Positions 80 to 9,261 of a stretch of 64,000 nt of DNA are shown piece after piece. How positions within the stretch are numbered: position 1 is the first letter of the stretch; every line of letters begins with the position of its first letter. Source of the DNA: an uncultured Erythrobacter sp. (GTDB lineage: Bacteria > Pseudomonadota > Alphaproteobacteria > Sphingomonadales > Sphingomonadaceae). The translations under genes were made by a program, and so were the position numbers. The notes beneath the pieces were generated by a model. That model was given only the letters and a program-made list of their open reading frames with translations, was not told where the DNA came from and ran no database searches. The stretch covers positions 1,488,001-1,552,000 of the forward strand of contig CANMZA010000001.1 of assembly GCA_947502305.1 (NCBI GenBank), read 5' to 3'.

Positions 80-481
80 ATGATCCAAGTCACTTATACA
101 AGCGTAGCAACCGGCAAGATCGGGTCTGCGGATGTCTTCAAAATTGTCGAAGCGTCTGCAAAGAACAATGCCGTAAACGGCTTATCCGGCTTCCTGATTT
201 TTACAGGCGGCAGGTTCTTCCAACTCTTAGAAGGGCCCGAGGCTGCGGTTGACGCGCTGCTTGCAAAATTGGCCAAGGATAGTCGCCATGCTTCGCTAGA
301 AGTGCTTACCCGCGCACCGGTAGAAGAGCGCCTGTTTACAAAATGGAAAATGAAACGACTGGCGCTTACTCGGCACCAGCCGTCCATCATTCACGACGTT
401 CCGGAGTTTCGCAGAGCGTCGCAATCAGTGAAGAACGCATTGGATGGGTTTCTAAACCCTGCCCTCTCACTAAGCGCCTAG
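80..481 (+). CDS. BLUF-domain blue-light sensor, single domain
   Basis: This 133-residue protein is almost entirely one BLUF (FAD-binding blue-light sensor) domain. The key flavin-pocket residues sit with the same spacing as in AppA: Tyr6 (AppA Tyr21), Asn30 (Asn45), Gln48 (Gln63), Trp89 (Trp104) and Met91 (Met106). The signature around residues 34-52 (GLSGFL, then FFQLLEG) is also present. In this family light rearranges the Tyr-Gln-flavin hydrogen bonds and the signal passes to a partner protein. No output domain is fused here; only about 35 residues follow the core, so it should act through a partner or an oligomer, like other short BLUF proteins. The next gene, aroQ, is 87 bp downstream and probably unrelated. 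The family call is confident; the output partner is unknown. Confidence 0.9.
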   Translation: MIQVTYTSVATGKIGSADVFKIVEASAKNNAVNGLSGFLIFTGGRFFQLLEGPEAAVDALLAKLAKDSRHASLEVLTRAPVEERLFTKWKMKRLALTRHQPSIIHDVPEFRRASQSVKNALDGFLNPALSLSA

Positions 482-1172: not shown

Positions 1173-1667
1173 ATGGCTGACAAAAAGCCAAGTGCGGGAC
1201 ACAAGTCCGGCATGAATATCGACACCGCACTGGTTCGCGAGCTCGCGGAGCTTCTCGACGAAACGGGGCTTTCTGAAATTGAAGTCGAGGATGACGACCG
1301 CAAGATCCGCGTCGCGCGTAGCGGCGGGGTCGTCACCGCGCCTGTGGCCGCGCCGGTTAACACGCCTGCCGCCCCGGCTCCGGCTGCTCCCGCAGCGGCC
1401 CCCACCCCAGAAGCAGCGCCAGAGGCCGATCACGCCAATGCGTTCAAATCGCCCATGGTTGGCACCGTCTATCTCGCCGCAGAACCAGGCGCGGCCAATT
1501 TCATCAAGGTCGGCGACAGCGTTAGCGAAGGCGACACGTTGCTGATTGTTGAGGCGATGAAGGTTATGAACCCGATCACCTCCGACAAATCTGGCACGGT
1601 CACAGCGATCTTGGTTGAGAACGCTCAACCGGTTGAATTCGACCAACCGCTCGTCGTGATTGCGTAA
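1173..1667 (+). CDS. accB: Biotin carboxyl carrier protein of acetyl-CoA carboxylase
   Basis: BCCP (164 aa) carries the biotin that shuttles CO2 between biotin carboxylase and carboxyltransferase in the first step of fatty-acid synthesis. The N-terminal segment (about 14-50) is the BCCP-specific helical region. A flexible Ala/Pro-rich linker (about 55-85) follows, then the biotinyl domain (90-164) with the EAMKVMN motif; Lys130 is the biotin attachment site. accC begins 6 bp after the stop, so the two are surely co-transcribed. An in-frame ATG at 1212 aligns with the usual family N-terminus and is an alternative start. Confidence 0.97.
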
Positions 1668-1673
1668 ACTGAG

Positions 1674-3047
1674 ATGCGCAAAGAAGGGGCCATTACCCGC
1701 ATCCTGATCGCCAATCGCGGTGAAATCGCGCTGCGCATTCACCGGGCGGCGCATGAAATGGGGATTGAGACGGTCGCGGTACATTCCACCGCCGATGCCG
1801 ATGCAATGCATGTGCGGCTGGCCGACCATGCCGTTTGCATCGGGCCGCCCGCTGCCACCGACAGCTATCTCAACGTCGCCAATATCATTTCCGCTGCGGA
1901 AATCGCCGAATGCGATGCGGTGCATCCCGGCTATGGCTTCCTGTCGGAAAACGCCAAATTTGCCGAGATTGTGGAGGCGCATGACCTCGCATGGATCGGA
2001 CCAAAGCCTGAACACATCCGCACGATGGGCGACAAGGTTGAGGCAAAACGTTCCGCTGGCGCTTTGGGTCTGCCCTTGGTTCCGGGTTCCGATGGAGCGG
2101 TTTCTGACCCAGAAGAAGGCAAGAAAATCGCCGCCGAAATCGGCTATCCGGTGATCATCAAAGCCGCCAGCGGCGGCGGCGGGCGCGGGATGAAGGTCTG
2201 CGAAAGCGAGGACCAGCTAGAGACCCTGATGAAACAGGCCGGGTCTGAAGCGAAAGCCGCCTTTGGCGATGCGACCGTTTACATTGAAAAGTATCTCGGC
2301 AACCCGCGCCACATCGAATTTCAGGTGTTTGGCGACGGTAAAGGCGCCGCGATCCATCTGGGTGAACGTGATTGCTCCTTGCAACGCCGCCACCAAAAAG
2401 TGCTGGAGGAGGCGCCCTCCCCCGTCATCAGCCATGATGAACGCATGCGAATGGGCGAGGTTTGTTCCAAAGCGATGCGCGACATGGCCTATCGCGGCGC
2501 AGGCACAATCGAATTCCTGTGGGAAAATGGCGAGTTCTATTTCATTGAAATGAACACCCGCCTGCAAGTCGAGCACCCCGTGACCGAAGCCATCACCGGC
2601 GTCGATCTGGTGCGCGAACAAATCCGCGTTGCGGCTGGTAAACCTTTGTCTGTCGCTCAGGAAGATCTGGAATTCAAAGGCCACGCCATCGAATGCCGGA
2701 TCAACGCAGAAGACCCGTTCAATTTCGCACCTTCGCCCGGCAAAGTGACCTATTACCACCCGGCTGGCGGGATGCATGTGCGGGTCGATTCCGGCCTCTA
2801 TGCGGGATATTCGATACCGCCCTATTACGACAGCATGATCGCGAAATTGATCGTCTATGGCCGCAACCGCGAAGGGTGCATTATGCGCCTGCGCCGCGCG
2901 CTCGAAGAGATGGTGGTCGAAGGCGTCAAAACCAACATTCCGCTGCATCAGGAATTGCTGCGTCAGGATGATATTTTGAACGGCGATTACACGATCAAAT
3001 GGCTCGAAGATTGGTTGGAAGAACGCGCGGCCGACAGCGAGGGTTGA
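1674..3047 (+). CDS. accC: Acetyl-CoA carboxylase, biotin carboxylase subunit
   Basis: Biotin carboxylase (457 aa) carries out ATP-dependent carboxylation of biotin on BCCP. The N-terminal ILIANRGEIALRI motif and HPGYGFLSEN mark the preATP-grasp domain (about 1-115). The glycine-rich ATP loop (AASGGGGRGM) falls near residues 163-173. The ATP-grasp catalytic segment FIEMNTRLQVEHPVTE is near 290-307. The C-terminal biotin carboxylase domain, with the ECRINAEDP motif, ends in an acidic tail. The length matches the approximately 450-aa family norm. It follows accB at 6 bp. The first residues (MRKEGA) are slightly longer than typical, so the exact start is less certain than the identity. Confidence 0.97.
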   Translation: MRKEGAITRILIANRGEIALRIHRAAHEMGIETVAVHSTADADAMHVRLADHAVCIGPPAATDSYLNVANIISAAEIAECDAVHPGYGFLSENAKFAEIVEAHDLAWIGPKPEHIRTMGDKVEAKRSAGALGLPLVPGSDGAVSDPEEGKKIAAEIGYPVIIKAASGGGGRGMKVCESEDQLETLMKQAGSEAKAAFGDATVYIEKYLGNPRHIEFQVFGDGKGAAIHLGERDCSLQRRHQKVLEEAPSPVISHDERMRMGEVCSKAMRDMAYRGAGTIEFLWENGEFYFIEMNTRLQVEHPVTEAITGVDLVREQIRVAAGKPLSVAQEDLEFKGHAIECRINAEDPFNFAPSPGKVTYYHPAGGMHVRVDSGLYAGYSIPPYYDSMIAKLIVYGRNREGCIMRLRRALEEMVVEGVKTNIPLHQELLRQDDILNGDYTIKWLEDWLEERAADSEG

Positions 3048-3075
3048 GAGCAAAGGCTGGCTGAGACGGCTTCGT

Positions 3076-4296
3076 CTAAGATGCCAATTGCGCCTGCTGC
3101 ACCCAATCGTGATCGGCTTCATTCACATTGACGACCGAAGCCAGCGGGCATGTCAGTGTGTAGATGAACGTCGAATCTTCGACATCAATGCGCGCCTTCC
3201 CATCCAGCGATTGCGGCACCAACCGGGTGAGCAAGACGTCTCGAAACCCCGTCAGCGGATCGGGCGTTATGGCAATCGTTTCGCCGGTTTCGCTCTCCAA
3301 TGCGCCTGACGCATCATCATGCGTCTTGAGGATCTCGCGCCATTCAAAGGTGAATTGATCGGCGCAGCCGCCGCTTTCTGGCACAATTTCCCCCGGTTGC
3401 GGCTCACTCGCTGGCGTCACGAACCACCGCACTTCGATCCGGGCATTCGCCTGATCCCACCGGTTCATCTCGACGAAGCGCGTTGCCAATTCCCACGCCG
3501 CCAGACTGATCTGCTGCGCCCCTTGCGCGCCCGTTTCGATCATCGGCCCAGACATCGACAATTTGGCGGCTGGCTCTGCAAACATGGGCTCCACTTGGCG
3601 GCGGATTACTCGTTCCATGCTCGCCCATGCGCTGTCATCTTGTTCCATCACCGTTGATGTTGCGATAGCCAGCGAATTGATCCGGCCCCGCAAATCGCGC
3701 AAAAATGCCTCGGGACGCTCGCTCAATTCAGAACCCGGCCTGGTCAAGGCAGAAACCGTCTGGATCAGATTGCGGCTGCGCTGCACCGCATCGCGTGCGG
3801 TCAGAGAGAGACGGGTATTGGCCTCTTTCAATTCCTGCGTCCGGTTGTTGACGCGGTCTTCTAACTCATCACGCGCCAAAGCGAGATCGACGAGCGTCAC
3901 TTCTAACTGCGCGATCACCTCTTCGTGTTTACCCGGCGTTGGGATGCGGATCAAAGTCGGGATCAACCGGAACAATGCCGCCGCCGTGGCCAAGGAAATC
4001 AGCCCCGTCGCCAGCTTAACCGTGCCCATCAACGGATAGATCGCGTACCATAATGTCACAATCGACATCGCATGGGTCACGCCGCAAAGCAGGATGAACG
4101 CAGCGAATAATGTCACCAGACCCCGGTGATTTAGGTCGGGCCTGCGCCGCAAAACCAACATGATCGCCAACGGGATCGCCATATAAGCGGCAAAGATCAT
4201 CAAATCTGACCCCGACCAAAGCAGCACCAACCAAGGTTCCCAAAGCAAGCACATGCCGTGCGGCATATATTGCTCATAATCTAGCAAGGCGTTCAT
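3076..4296 (-). CDS. Ethylene-receptor-type membrane sensor with degenerate HWE/HisKA_2-like kinase
   Basis: The N-terminal three membrane segments (about 22-118) match the plant ethylene-binding domain. Asp31, Tyr38, Ile41, Pro42, Ile68, Cys71 and His75 fall at exactly the spacing of ETR1 Asp25, Tyr32, Ile35, Pro36, Ile62, Cys65 and His69; Cys/His are the copper ligands in ETR1. A coiled coil (about 125-165) follows, then a domain aligning with HWE/HisKA_2 histidine kinases. In the H-box (DAVQRSRN) Gln172 replaces the phospho-acceptor His. In the N-box (AWELATRF) Trp268 and Arg273 replace the usual His and Asn. It therefore looks like a receptor with a pseudokinase output and no receiver domain. 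ATG 4296 has the SD GGAAAGG; a TTG at 4326 would add 10 residues. It converges with accC. Ligand and signalling route are inferred only. Confidence 0.8.
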   Translation of the reverse strand: MNALLDYEQYMPHGMCLLWEPWLVLLWSGSDLMIFAAYMAIPLAIMLVLRRRPDLNHRGLVTLFAAFILLCGVTHAMSIVTLWYAIYPLMGTVKLATGLISLATAAALFRLIPTLIRIPTPGKHEEVIAQLEVTLVDLALARDELEDRVNNRTQELKEANTRLSLTARDAVQRSRNLIQTVSALTRPGSELSERPEAFLRDLRGRINSLAIATSTVMEQDDSAWASMERVIRRQVEPMFAEPAAKLSMSGPMIETGAQGAQQISLAAWELATRFVEMNRWDQANARIEVRWFVTPASEPQPGEIVPESGGCADQFTFEWREILKTHDDASGALESETGETIAITPDPLTGFRDVLLTRLVPQSLDGKARIDVEDSTFIYTLTCPLASVVNVNEADHDWVQQAQLAS

Positions 4297-4573: not shown

Positions 4574-5926
4574 ATGAAGCACGAAGAGATTTCCGCGCCC
4601 AGCGCGCGCCAATCGCGTCCGCGCAAGACGCAGATTGTTGTGGTTGGCGGCGGGGCCGGCGGGCTTGAGCTCGTGCGCAAACTCGGCGCGAAATATGGCC
4701 GCAAACGCCACGATATTATTCTGGTTGACCAAAATCTTAGCCACATTTGGAAACCACTTTTGCACGAGGTCGCCGCCGGGTCGCTCGACGCCAATTTGGA
4801 TGAAGTTGGTTACCGGGGGCACTGCGCAAAGTGGGGTTATCGGTTTTTCCAAGGCAGTTTGGAAAGCATCGACCGCGAAGCAAAGTCGATTCGCCTTGCG
4901 CCAGTGATGGATGATCACGGCGAAGAAGTGATTGGCGGGCACACGATCCGTTATGACATTTTGGTCCTGGCGGTGGGGTCAATTTCGAATGATTTCGGCG
5001 TGCCCGGCGTCGCCGAACATTGCCTGTATCTCGACAGCCGCGAACAGGCCGACCGGTTCCGCACAAAATTGCTCAATCATTGTCTTCGCGTCAGCCGCGC
5101 GATGATCGGGAACCCCGATGCAGATGAGCGGGTCAAGGTTGCCATTGTCGGCGCGGGCGCCACCGGGGTTGAGCTTGCCGCAGAGCTTTACAATGCCGCA
5201 GGGGCGCTGAAATTCTATGGCCTCGAAGTGTTTGATGAAACGCGGATGGTTGTGACAATTTTGGAGGCTGGGCCGCGCATTCTGCCCGCATTGCCAGAAG
5301 ATTTGTCGCAGGCCGCCCGCAGAGAATTGACGAATCTCGGCGTCGAAGTGCGCGAAGAGACGCAGGTCATTCGGGCGGAAAAGGGCGCTTTGGTGACGCA
5401 GTCCGGCGATAGGCTGGATGCTGATTTGATGGTCTGGGCCGCCGGGGTCAAAGGCGCAGAATTTCTCAGCACGCTGGGCCTGCAAACCAATCCGCGAAAT
5501 CAAATCCTTGTCACAGAGACGCTGCAAACCGTCAGTGATGAGAATATTTTCGCGATCGGCGATTGCGCATCCTACACCCCGCCCGGCAGCGATATCGCCA
5601 TTCCCCCGCGCGCGCAGGCGGCGCATCAGATGGCCGCAACCGTGCTCACCAATATTCACCGCAAGCAGAAAAAGAAGAAGCTCAAAGCGTTTGATTACGA
5701 GGACAAAGGCTCGCTGATTTCGCTCAGCCGTTTCTCAACCGTCGGCAGCCTGATGGGCAATCTGGTCGGCGGCGCTTTGGCGGTAGAAGGACGGATGGCG
5801 CGGTTGATCTACACGACGCTGTACCGCCTGCATTTGCTGGGCATTCACGGCTGGATCCGGGGGACCGGATTGATGATCATTGGCCGGGTAAACCGCGTGG
5901 TGAGGCCGAAACTGAAACTGCACTGA
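4574..5926 (+). CDS. ndh: Type II NADH dehydrogenase (NDH-2)
   Basis: Single-subunit, non-proton-pumping NADH:quinone oxidoreductase of the inner-membrane surface (450 aa). The first dinucleotide fold, GGGAGGLELV near residue 25, binds FAD. The second, IVGAGATGVELA near 190, binds NADH. The AIGDCA motif near 325 contacts FAD, and the nearby PPRAQAAHQMA stretch lines the quinone site in this family. A C-terminal amphipathic/hydrophobic anchor (about 390-440) is present. The N-terminal 17 residues are extra and polar. ATG 4574 has the SD AGGGAC. It is divergent from the ethylene-type receptor and convergent with the GFA gene. NDH-2 is the best fit; a general pyridine nucleotide-disulphide oxidoreductase is unlikely given the anchor. 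Confidence 0.92.
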   Translation: MKHEEISAPSARQSRPRKTQIVVVGGGAGGLELVRKLGAKYGRKRHDIILVDQNLSHIWKPLLHEVAAGSLDANLDEVGYRGHCAKWGYRFFQGSLESIDREAKSIRLAPVMDDHGEEVIGGHTIRYDILVLAVGSISNDFGVPGVAEHCLYLDSREQADRFRTKLLNHCLRVSRAMIGNPDADERVKVAIVGAGATGVELAAELYNAAGALKFYGLEVFDETRMVVTILEAGPRILPALPEDLSQAARRELTNLGVEVREETQVIRAEKGALVTQSGDRLDADLMVWAAGVKGAEFLSTLGLQTNPRNQILVTETLQTVSDENIFAIGDCASYTPPGSDIAIPPRAQAAHQMAATVLTNIHRKQKKKKLKAFDYEDKGSLISLSRFSTVGSLMGNLVGGALAVEGRMARLIYTTLYRLHLLGIHGWIRGTGLMIIGRVNRVVRPKLKLH

Positions 5927-7209: not shown

Positions 7210-9261
7210 ATGTTCTTCGACGATCGCCTAGCGACTGTGCTGCGACAGCGCGCGTCCAGCGATGTCGGATTGCGCACGCAATATAGGCAATTGCTTGATA
7301 TTTTGGGTGCCGAGCGGACGGCTGGCATCTTTAGCAGCGCGTCTAATGGCGCTGCTGATGGTGGGCCCGGTACGGGCGCGGATGAGGGGAATCGCGGCGA
7401 TCCCAGTCTGATTGCATCGGCGTGGCTGCGGATGGATGCTTTGGCGGAGAAAATTCCGGCGAATGCCCGTGCGCGGATGATACGCGAGCCGGGATGGCGG
7501 TTTCGCAATCCGGAATTGGCGACGCATTTGGCCGATTTTGAACCCGATGTGGCCTCCGCCGCGTTGAACCGGGCGCAGCTTTCGGCAGAGGATTGGTCCG
7601 CACTGATCCCGCGACTGCCAGTAAGGGCGCGCGGATTTTTGCGCTTGCGGCGCGATTTGCCGGTTGATGTGGAGACATTGCTTGAGCGGCTGGGCGTGCA
7701 CGATCGCGGCCTGCCATCCCCCGATGCACCTATTGATGCACTGCTCGATAGCGCTCTTGATGGAACCGGCACAGGCATTGGGGCAACGCCCCAGATTGAG
7801 GAAACGGCGCACCCGGCGGCAATTGTGCCTCCGAGCAGGGTGCAGCGGCCTGCCACACACAAACCGCCTGCTGATTTTGAAGTGGACGCGCCTCAGACAA
7901 GTCCGGCAGCGACATCACCCGCATCTGCGCCAATCAACGAAGACGCCGCGCCGCCGCATGATATTGCCGAGCCGCTCGAAACAGTCCCGGCACCAAAAGC
8001 GGAAACTACCCAGCCATCACGCTCACCCTTTGATCCGGGCAGCGAAGGGCGCAGCGAAATCTCGGCCCTTGTCGAACGCATCGCGCAATTCAAACGCACC
8101 CGCGAAAGCGGCGCTGAATTGGACGGCAGCGAACCGCGTCTGCCGCTTGGCGAGGATCAGATGCGCAATGTCCGGCTCGTCAGCGCATTCGGCTTTGCCG
8201 CGGATGCTGGCGGACGGATTGAATGGGCGGATGGCGAGGTTGCCGCGATGGTGATCGGCACGCGTCTGGTCGCCCCGCCGCGGCTAGGCAGCGCCAATCG
8301 CGAAACACCGCTTGAGCGTTCCTTCATCCGCCGTCAGCCGATTTCTGGCGCAAATGCGCAGCTTTTTGGCGCAGAAGCGATTGCAGGCGATTGGACCGTC
8401 GATGCGCAGCCGCGCTTTACAGATGATGGCAATTTCGCCGGTTATGTTGGCCGTTTTCGCCGCCCGGCCAGCAATGATCCCGCCGCGCCCAGCGCCGCCG
8501 CAAAAGAAGCCGACCGCATTCGCCAATTGCTCCACGAATTGCGCACTCCTGTCACCGCCGTCCAAGGCTATGCCGAGGTGATCCAGCAACAATTATTTGG
8601 CAGCGCGCCGCATGAATATCGCGCGCTTGCCGCCGCAATTGCCGCTGATGCTGCGCGAATTTTGGCCGGGTTTGAGGAATTGGATCGGCTTGCACGTTTA
8701 GAGACGGGCGCGATTGAGACGGAGCCGGGTGAGACCGATCTTGCCGCTTTGGTCCGCCGCACCAATCGCCAGTTGGAGCAGGTTTTGCACCCGCGCATGG
8801 CCGGAATCTCGCTCGACACGGATGACACGCCTTACATCGTCACGCTGAGCATGGATTGCGCAGAGGCGCTGCTGTGGCGGTTGCTCGCCACGCTTGGCGG
8901 TGGGTGTTCTGCTGGCGAGATGTTGCAAGCCACAATCACTGGCACGCTCACTGGCACGGGCGGCAGTGCAACAGGCGCCACAATTGGCGGCGCAGGCGCC
9001 GGTATGGCGCAGCTGGTGTGCGACTTACCTGCACAATTGCTGGCGGAAGAAGATATTTTCACCGCCGAGGTCAAACCGGTCGGGACCGCGATCAATGCCG
9101 GTTTGTTCGGAGCCGGTTTTGCCCTGCGCTTGGCCAGAGCAGAGGCGCGCGCAGCGGGCGGCGGCTTGGTCCGCGATGATGAGAGGATCGTCCTCACATT
9201 GCCCTTGCTGGACACAGACAGCGACGCAGAGACGGATTGCGAAGCGTGGGCCGATAGCTAG
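7210..9261 (+). CDS. Large sensor histidine kinase with divergent ATPase domain
   Basis: The 683-aa protein has an N-terminal part (1-180) of unknown function, a Pro/Ala-rich linker (about 180-270), a possible PAS-like segment (about 295-410), and a canonical HisKA H-box. LLHELRTP places the phospho-acceptor at His442. The C-terminal ATPase region is unusual. A G2-like stretch (LFGAGFALRLARAEARAAGGG, split by context) precedes the last strand, but no N-box Asn and no DxGxG motif is visible. A Gly/Thr-rich insert replaces that part. There are no transmembrane segments, so it is probably cytoplasmic. ATG 7210 has the SD AGGAG. No response regulator is adjacent. Kinase ancestry is clear; catalytic competence is doubtful. 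Confidence 0.8.
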   Translation: MFFDDRLATVLRQRASSDVGLRTQYRQLLDILGAERTAGIFSSASNGAADGGPGTGADEGNRGDPSLIASAWLRMDALAEKIPANARARMIREPGWRFRNPELATHLADFEPDVASAALNRAQLSAEDWSALIPRLPVRARGFLRLRRDLPVDVETLLERLGVHDRGLPSPDAPIDALLDSALDGTGTGIGATPQIEETAHPAAIVPPSRVQRPATHKPPADFEVDAPQTSPAATSPASAPINEDAAPPHDIAEPLETVPAPKAETTQPSRSPFDPGSEGRSEISALVERIAQFKRTRESGAELDGSEPRLPLGEDQMRNVRLVSAFGFAADAGGRIEWADGEVAAMVIGTRLVAPPRLGSANRETPLERSFIRRQPISGANAQLFGAEAIAGDWTVDAQPRFTDDGNFAGYVGRFRRPASNDPAAPSAAAKEADRIRQLLHELRTPVTAVQGYAEVIQQQLFGSAPHEYRALAAAIAADAARILAGFEELDRLARLETGAIETEPGETDLAALVRRTNRQLEQVLHPRMAGISLDTDDTPYIVTLSMDCAEALLWRLLATLGGGCSAGEMLQATITGTLTGTGGSATGATIGGAGAGMAQLVCDLPAQLLAEEDIFTAEVKPVGTAINAGLFGAGFALRLARAEARAAGGGLVRDDERIVLTLPLLDTDSDAETDCEAWADS

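Follow-up and report, generated by a model that had tools for sequence, protein, structure and literature searches.

A gene on the minus strand of the window, a 64,000-nucleotide stretch of contig CANMZA010000001.1 from an uncultured Erythrobacter sp., encodes a membrane sensor that carries the residues of the plant ethylene-binding pocket and is joined to an HWE-type output module in which the residues for phosphorylation are replaced. Because both the phospho-acceptor and the ATP-site residues are lost, this protein likely signals by docking; we assign a probability of about 0.45 to the reading that it is a kinase-dead sensor that docks the receiver domain of a response regulator on its conserved DHp part without phosphorylating it. 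The original prediction, made from the letters alone, located the gene at positions 3076–4296 without giving a strand. The plus-strand reading of this interval contains nine stops, and the receptor, with an ATG start and 406 amino acids (aa) before its stop codon, lies on the minus strand.

Pfam assigned residues 23–117 to ETR1_N (PF25487; E = 2.4e-29, 101.9 bits against a cut-off of 27) and residues 173–251 to HWE_HK (PF07536; E = 4.8e-9, 37.3 bits against a cut-off of 22.8), and it identified neither a GAF nor a receiver domain in the protein. Both matches are far beyond chance, and the former bears out the proposal of an ethylene-receptor-type sensor. An HWE/HisKA_2 output had also been proposed; the HWE assignment stands, whereas the HisKA_2 match scores under its Pfam cut-off. 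In a single predicted structural model, membrane helices occupy residues 21–51, 58–81, and 87–117, and a single unbroken helix occupies residues 122–185. Based on structure comparison of the predicted output module, in which the match lists span residues 169–390, the best matches are HWE kinases with the DHp-CA fold. These matches led us to reject a different fold with catalysis of its own, the outcome against which the original prediction was to be checked.

All seven pocket residues named in that prediction are present in the translation (Asp31, Tyr38, Ile41, Pro42, Ile68, Cys71, and His75), each numbered 6 higher than its ETR1 counterpart, as identical spacing demands; the equivalence follows the ETR1 numbering given in the prediction. 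Four of the ETR1 counterparts are presumably Tyr32, Ile35, Pro36, and Ile62, as named there. The ETR1 copper site is given as Asp25/Cys65/His69 (PMC12643061), and seven ETR1 residues are described as required for ethylene binding (PMC6682694). We infer that copper(I) and ethylene would bind the window protein at Asp31/Cys71/His75.

We compared the output module among 181 relatives, consisting of the 120 listed of 280 matches in a first protein search and 61 new proteins among the 120 listed of 482 matches in a second search, which started from P0046. Trp268 and Arg273 are present in all members of a group of 38 of these proteins (P0001–P0038, clade A); three others (P0046, P0051, and P0054, clade B) have Gly172, Lys176, and Ala273 and keep all seven pocket residues, and the other 140 listed relatives all have His172 and Asn273 (the intact type). 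When the protein is aligned with 5epv, an HWE kinase of solved structure, the phospho-acceptor His falls at Gln172 and the N-box Asn at Arg273, in agreement with the original prediction. The prediction that Trp268 and Arg273 replace the N-box His and Asn is also consistent with 78 full-length intact relatives, in which column 268 contains His (70) or Tyr (8) and column 273 is invariably Asn. One further substitution had been overlooked: Gly352 of the GFG motif, present in 78/78 of these relatives, is Arg in the window protein. His172, Asn273, and Gly352 are all present in each of the 78 relatives and in 61/61 proteins from the second search.

The H-box of the window protein reads QRSRN in place of HRxxN, so that the phosphorylatable DHp His of PhyT/PhyK-type phosphotransferases is replaced by Gln172; across clade A, residue 172 is Gln in 24 proteins, His in 6, Arg in 4, Leu in 3, and Ser in 1, and residues 165–219 contain no other column with a conserved His. 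The original prediction had asked whether the lost residues are lost in all homologues: within clade A this holds for the Trp268/Arg273 pair (38/38), but not for His172, which is kept in 6/38. The letters of the HWE name refer to the N-box His and a W-x-E motif. Whereas the N-box His and Asn have given way to Trp268/Arg273, the W-x-E residues Trp319 and Glu321 are kept in the window protein and in 36/38 clade A members, with a fragment accounting for one of the two misses. An R-box Arg and an N-box Glu, which PMC12148442 names as HWE family features, are represented by Arg205 and Glu269, each kept in 38/38 members. Arg173 and Asn176 are kept equally (38/38 each); Asn176 is also Asn in 79/79 intact relatives, whereas all three clade B proteins have Lys. 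Judged by these residues, the window protein is a degenerate descendant of the HWE family and not a kinase, since the N-box His and Asn are replaced even though the HWE profile and fold are both recognizable. Clade B is a different type of kinase loss, in which the Asn of HRxxN is also gone.

Because Trp268 and Arg273 are common to 38 relatives, we rejected the idea of a single damaged gene. In a tree of 118 of the 120 proteins from the first search (>330 aa), 37 clade A rows form one group (SH-aLRT 99). In a rooted tree of 78 chosen rows, with the ETR1_N-HWE proteins L074, L076, L078, L094, L097, and L107 as outgroup (the L078 branch is very long), clade A is nested among intact kinases, and the intact protein of Altererythrobacter arenosus (P0039) falls just outside it; both trees come from fast searches, SH-aLRT is their only measure of support, and columns 172, 268, and 273 were probably included in both. 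Clade B neighbours clade A in the rooted tree with a support of 92, which is not firm, so the two clades may share a first loss or represent two separate losses; the second search, although started from a clade B protein, identified no clade B member among its 61 new proteins. The earliest clade A branch, P0032, keeps His172 and Gly352 but already has Trp268 and Arg273, so the ATP site was altered first and the His dropped later. The His in P0010, P0014, P0019, P0022, and P0027 may be either retained or regained. In a fuller scenario, which we put forward tentatively, at somewhat under even odds, a fixed Trp/Arg pair became the centre of a remodelled ATP site, loss of the His followed, and the product became an ethylene-gated binding switch that evolved apart from plants and controls a two-component pathway through its grip on the receiver or the kinase.

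To compare identity, we used 36 clade A rows (without the near-copy P0005 and the fragment P0034) and 78 intact rows (without the fragment P0077). The loci L006 and L064, which yielded broken frames, were set aside. DHp is the most alike part of clade A, with a mean pairwise identity of 0.73 against 0.56 among intact kinases, and the CA-N values are 0.63 and 0.49, respectively; the membrane helices, however, reach 0.60–0.67 in clade A and 0.70–0.76 in the intact set. Since the intact set is broader, the absolute values are less informative than the reversed order (DHp above the membrane helices in clade A and below them in the kinases). In the seven clade A members that have lost a copper ligand (P0028, P0030, P0031, and P0035–P0038), the identity of the membrane helices falls to 0.43–0.47, whereas that of DHp remains at 0.71. 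Over the whole receptor gene of the window, the ratio of nonsynonymous to synonymous substitution rates (dN/dS) is 0.14 in the comparison with L034, which shows the least saturation, and 0.17, 0.15, and 0.20 against L004, L035, and the His-keeping member L036, for which synonymous sites are near saturation and the ratios are rough. Divided by domain, the comparison with L034 gave 0.08 for the membrane domain, 0.17 for the coil, 0.04 for DHp, and 0.14 for CA. Based on this pattern of DHp identity and dN/dS, the dead module is under purifying selection and is retained even in members that have lost pocket residues.

Among 100 sampled genomes of the genus, nine contain the clade A gene (the window's own, G180, G217, G218, G226, G247, G260, G275, and G284) and three the intact type (G212, G237, and G264). 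Named clade A carriers are uncultured Erythrobacter (L034 and L036) and Erythrobacter sp. NAP1 (L035). Residue 172 is Gln in seven of the nine carriers, His in one, and Ser in one; all nine have Trp268 and Arg273, and none has an internal stop in the receptor gene. In G260, Phe replaces Cys71; this locus (L136) is among the copper-site losers, whose pocket strings include EYISIGQ, DCIAIYH, and DCIPIFH alongside a dead kinase module that is still conserved. Each carrier genome contains exactly one ETR1_N gene, and we therefore rejected a partnership with a co-resident intact kinase of the ethylene-receptor type.

In 9/9 carriers the receptor is flanked by one or more of a common set of genes (accC, oxidoreductase, GFA, and Lrp), with accC within the short loci in seven. 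Among ten other genus genomes, seven without a match and three with the intact type elsewhere, six have an empty site in which accC and the oxidoreductase lie within about 350 bases. The oxidoreductase appears to be NDH-2-like. From a set in which 80 of 127 loci were kept, the 36 named intact-type loci (L037–L072) had no accC in the surrounding DNA examined. A constant neighbour of the intact kinases was rejected, as no neighbour cluster apart from the receptors occurred in more than four loci; this survey covered 36 readable loci of 39 (33 of intact type) and used crude gene picking, with some antisense frames and unannotated clusters. Two other genes of the window were recorded. Positions 7210–9261 (plus strand), starting ~2.9 kb from the receptor, encode a 683-aa protein with a HisKA match (2.5e-9) and no HATPase_c match, the tail of which resembles, by eye, another degenerate ATP-binding domain; this protein is also present beside the receptor locus in L034–L036. 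Positions 80–481 (plus strand) encode a BLUF blue-light sensor protein (1.5e-27) that adjoins aroQ-accB-accC.

Table 1. Positions in the window of the receptor gene, its parts, its key codons, and its neighbours.
Feature	Position	Strand	Basis
Receptor gene	3076..4296	-	406 aa plus stop
ETR1_N membrane domain, residues 23-117, three long helices in model	3946..4230	-	Pfam PF25487
Signalling helix joining sensor to output, residues 118-168	3793..3945	-	Predicted model
DHp part of HWE module, residues 169-217	3646..3792	-	Pfam, model, conservation
CA (ATP-binding-type) domain, residues 218-390, degenerate	3127..3645	-	Structure matches, conservation
Asp31 codon (ETR1 Asp25, copper site)	4204..4206	-	Asp in 36/38 clade A members
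Cys71 codon (ETR1 Cys65, copper site)	4084..4086	-	Cys in 31/38 clade A members
His75 codon (ETR1 His69, copper site)	4072..4074	-	His in 36/38 clade A members
Gln172 codon CAG, place of phospho-acceptor His	3781..3783	-	Non-His in 32/38 clade A members
Asn176 codon, final residue of HRxxN motif, kept	3769..3771	-	Asn in 38/38 clade A members
Trp268 codon, place of N-box His	3493..3495	-	Trp in 38/38 clade A members
Arg273 codon CGC, place of N-box Asn	3478..3480	-	Arg in 38/38 clade A members
accC (biotin carboxylase), convergent neighbour, marker of conserved locus	1674..3047	+	Pfam, synteny
Pyridine nucleotide-disulphide oxidoreductase, divergent neighbour	4574..5926	+	Pfam, synteny

The genome contains five other HWE_HK matches, all of which keep His, Asn, and GxG when their translations are read by eye, and 32 receiver-domain matches, 31 of them above the cut-off. 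One of the five kinases, with a CHASE sensor, is located at a general-stress locus (L125) alongside an EcfG-type sigma factor, NepR, and PhyR. A motif scan of the genome for SdrG-type single-domain receivers was empty in its first form and gave no clear match in a wider form; two other single-domain receivers are present (L179 and L180). In L127, a PAS-HWE kinase (1424-3253) comes after a frame judged CheR-like by eye and adjoins the receiver L179 (G000:C1:4823-5140), and these two genes of the window's genome are likely a two-component pair.

Protein binding appears to be the likeliest mode of working for the receptor. In the mechanism that we propose, copper and ethylene would sit in the membrane dimer, and the signal would travel along the continuous helix 122–185. 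The DHp dimer, its RxxN motif untouched, would then alter its grip on a receiver belonging to an HWE pathway of the genome and would thereby keep this receiver from, or release it to, the working kinases; in an alternative final step, DHp would pair with a kinase. A dedicated phosphatase role is conceivable since Asn176 is kept, but we rejected it because the H260A change in HK853 is reported to diminish phosphatase activity (PMC5727384).

Several results weigh against docking of a receiver by an ethylene sensor. The seven neighbouring genes examined encode no receiver domain. A scan for a sigma-EcfG-type motif, using what we take to be the promoter pattern, was positive at the genome's nepR locus but found no match in the 300 bases upstream of nine orthologues; the promoter thus gives no tie to the general stress response, and membership in the sigma-EcfG regulon on this ground was rejected. 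PhyT keeps its phospho-acceptor His, whereas the window protein does not. The DHp signal is also uneven: in the 29 clade A members whose copper site is complete, DHp identity (0.76) is no higher than that of membrane helices one and two (0.76 and 0.77), and its dN/dS against L004, L035, and L036 (0.18, 0.09, and 0.35) is not low in every pair. Lastly, although Cys and His, whose loss in homologues the original prediction named as a refutation, are missing in a minority only, all seven pocket residues are exact in just 21/38 clade A members, including the window protein, and a copper ligand (Asp, Cys, or His) is lost in 7/38, in two regions of the tree. The output module thus outlasts the pocket, and not every clade A member can be an ethylene sensor.

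These seven members, which retain the output module, would fit a membrane domain that senses something other than ethylene, such as copper or another small ligand, so that "ethylene receptor" would describe ancestry, and the literature searched gave nothing on ethylene sensing by these bacteria. We consider this quite unlikely for the window protein, which shares all seven residues with 20 others of the 38 and with 140/140 intact relatives; moreover, related bacterial domains from Synechocystis and Azospirillum are reported to bind ethylene. A somewhat stronger contender, though still improbable, is that the dead module forms mixed dimers with one of the five intact HWE kinases and gates it, by analogy with the laboratory-evolved histidine kinase pseudokinase ChrS, which heterodimerizes with its paralogue HrrS (PMC9491836). 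Here all five kinases keep their catalytic residues, and the dimer-forming coil and DHp are conserved. However, their identity to the window protein is low (22 and 23% in the two that match at E ≤ 0.001), their sensor parts differ, and the closest relatives, the intact ETR1_N-HWE kinases, are absent from 9/9 carrier genomes.

A role in phosphotransfer, with the kinase lost and a phosphorylatable residue kept as in PhyT and PhyK, is very unlikely for the window protein because of its Gln172, the lack of His172 in 32/38 members, and the absence of any other conserved His in residues 165–219. Caulobacter PhyK and LovK are reported to act as phosphotransferases without use of their own kinase (PMC5964349), and His172 occurs with Arg273 in 6/38 members, P0032 included; the ancestor may therefore have worked as a relay. 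Least credible, and already disfavoured, is a decaying ex-kinase without function. Its patchy spread (9/100 sampled genomes, with an empty site in 6/10 others checked) is what decay would predict, but the gene is free of internal stops in 9/9 carriers, its whole-gene dN/dS is 0.14–0.20 in four comparisons, Trp268 and Arg273 are fixed in 38/38, and DHp is more alike in clade A than among working kinases.

Among the matches listed, the closest relatives are the intact ETR1_N-HWE kinases of Alphaproteobacteria (about 38–49% identity), such as those of Leisingera (P0045), Qipengyuania mesophila (P0060), and Altererythrobacter arenosus, which have the same two domains. SynEtr1 and AzoEtr1 likewise join an ETR1_N-type sensor to a histidine-kinase-type output; SynEtr1 is reported to signal by His phosphorylation, and the authors of the AzoEtr1 work predict the same for their protein, whereas in the window protein the phospho-acceptor His is missing, as are the Asn of the N-box and one Gly of the G-box. 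PhyT/PhyP of Sphingomonas and PhyK/LovK of Caulobacter share an HWE/HisKA_2 module whose own kinase is degenerate or dispensable, and PhyT, despite its degenerate ATPase domain, restrains PhyR through complex formation; however, they act by phosphotransfer via a His that the window protein does not have. To our knowledge, their sensors are not ETR1_N. As these sources describe them, none of the PhyT, PhyK/LovK, and ChrS precedents joins an ETR1_N sensor to a His-less module. The literature searched, which left out most subscription papers so that absence is unproven, describes no bacterial ethylene receptor with a dead kinase. The bacterial clade orders the change on a tree (Asn first, His later) and offers for comparison sister kinases that are intact, members that keep the His, and side branches that lost the pocket, so the role of a kinase-less ethylene receptor would be directly testable in a bacterium. 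Some plant ethylene receptors have no canonical kinase. The original prediction's appeal to such receptors is an analogy: the window protein shares with ETR1 an ETR1_N domain with seven pocket residues and, as proposed, an output without phosphorylation, and plant receptors are reported to signal mainly without kinase activity (PMC11819568). It differs from them in its HWE module, in the absence of GAF and receiver domains, and in the origin of its loss within a bacterial HWE kinase family; if our reading is true, bacteria evolved a kinase-independent ethylene receptor separately from plants.
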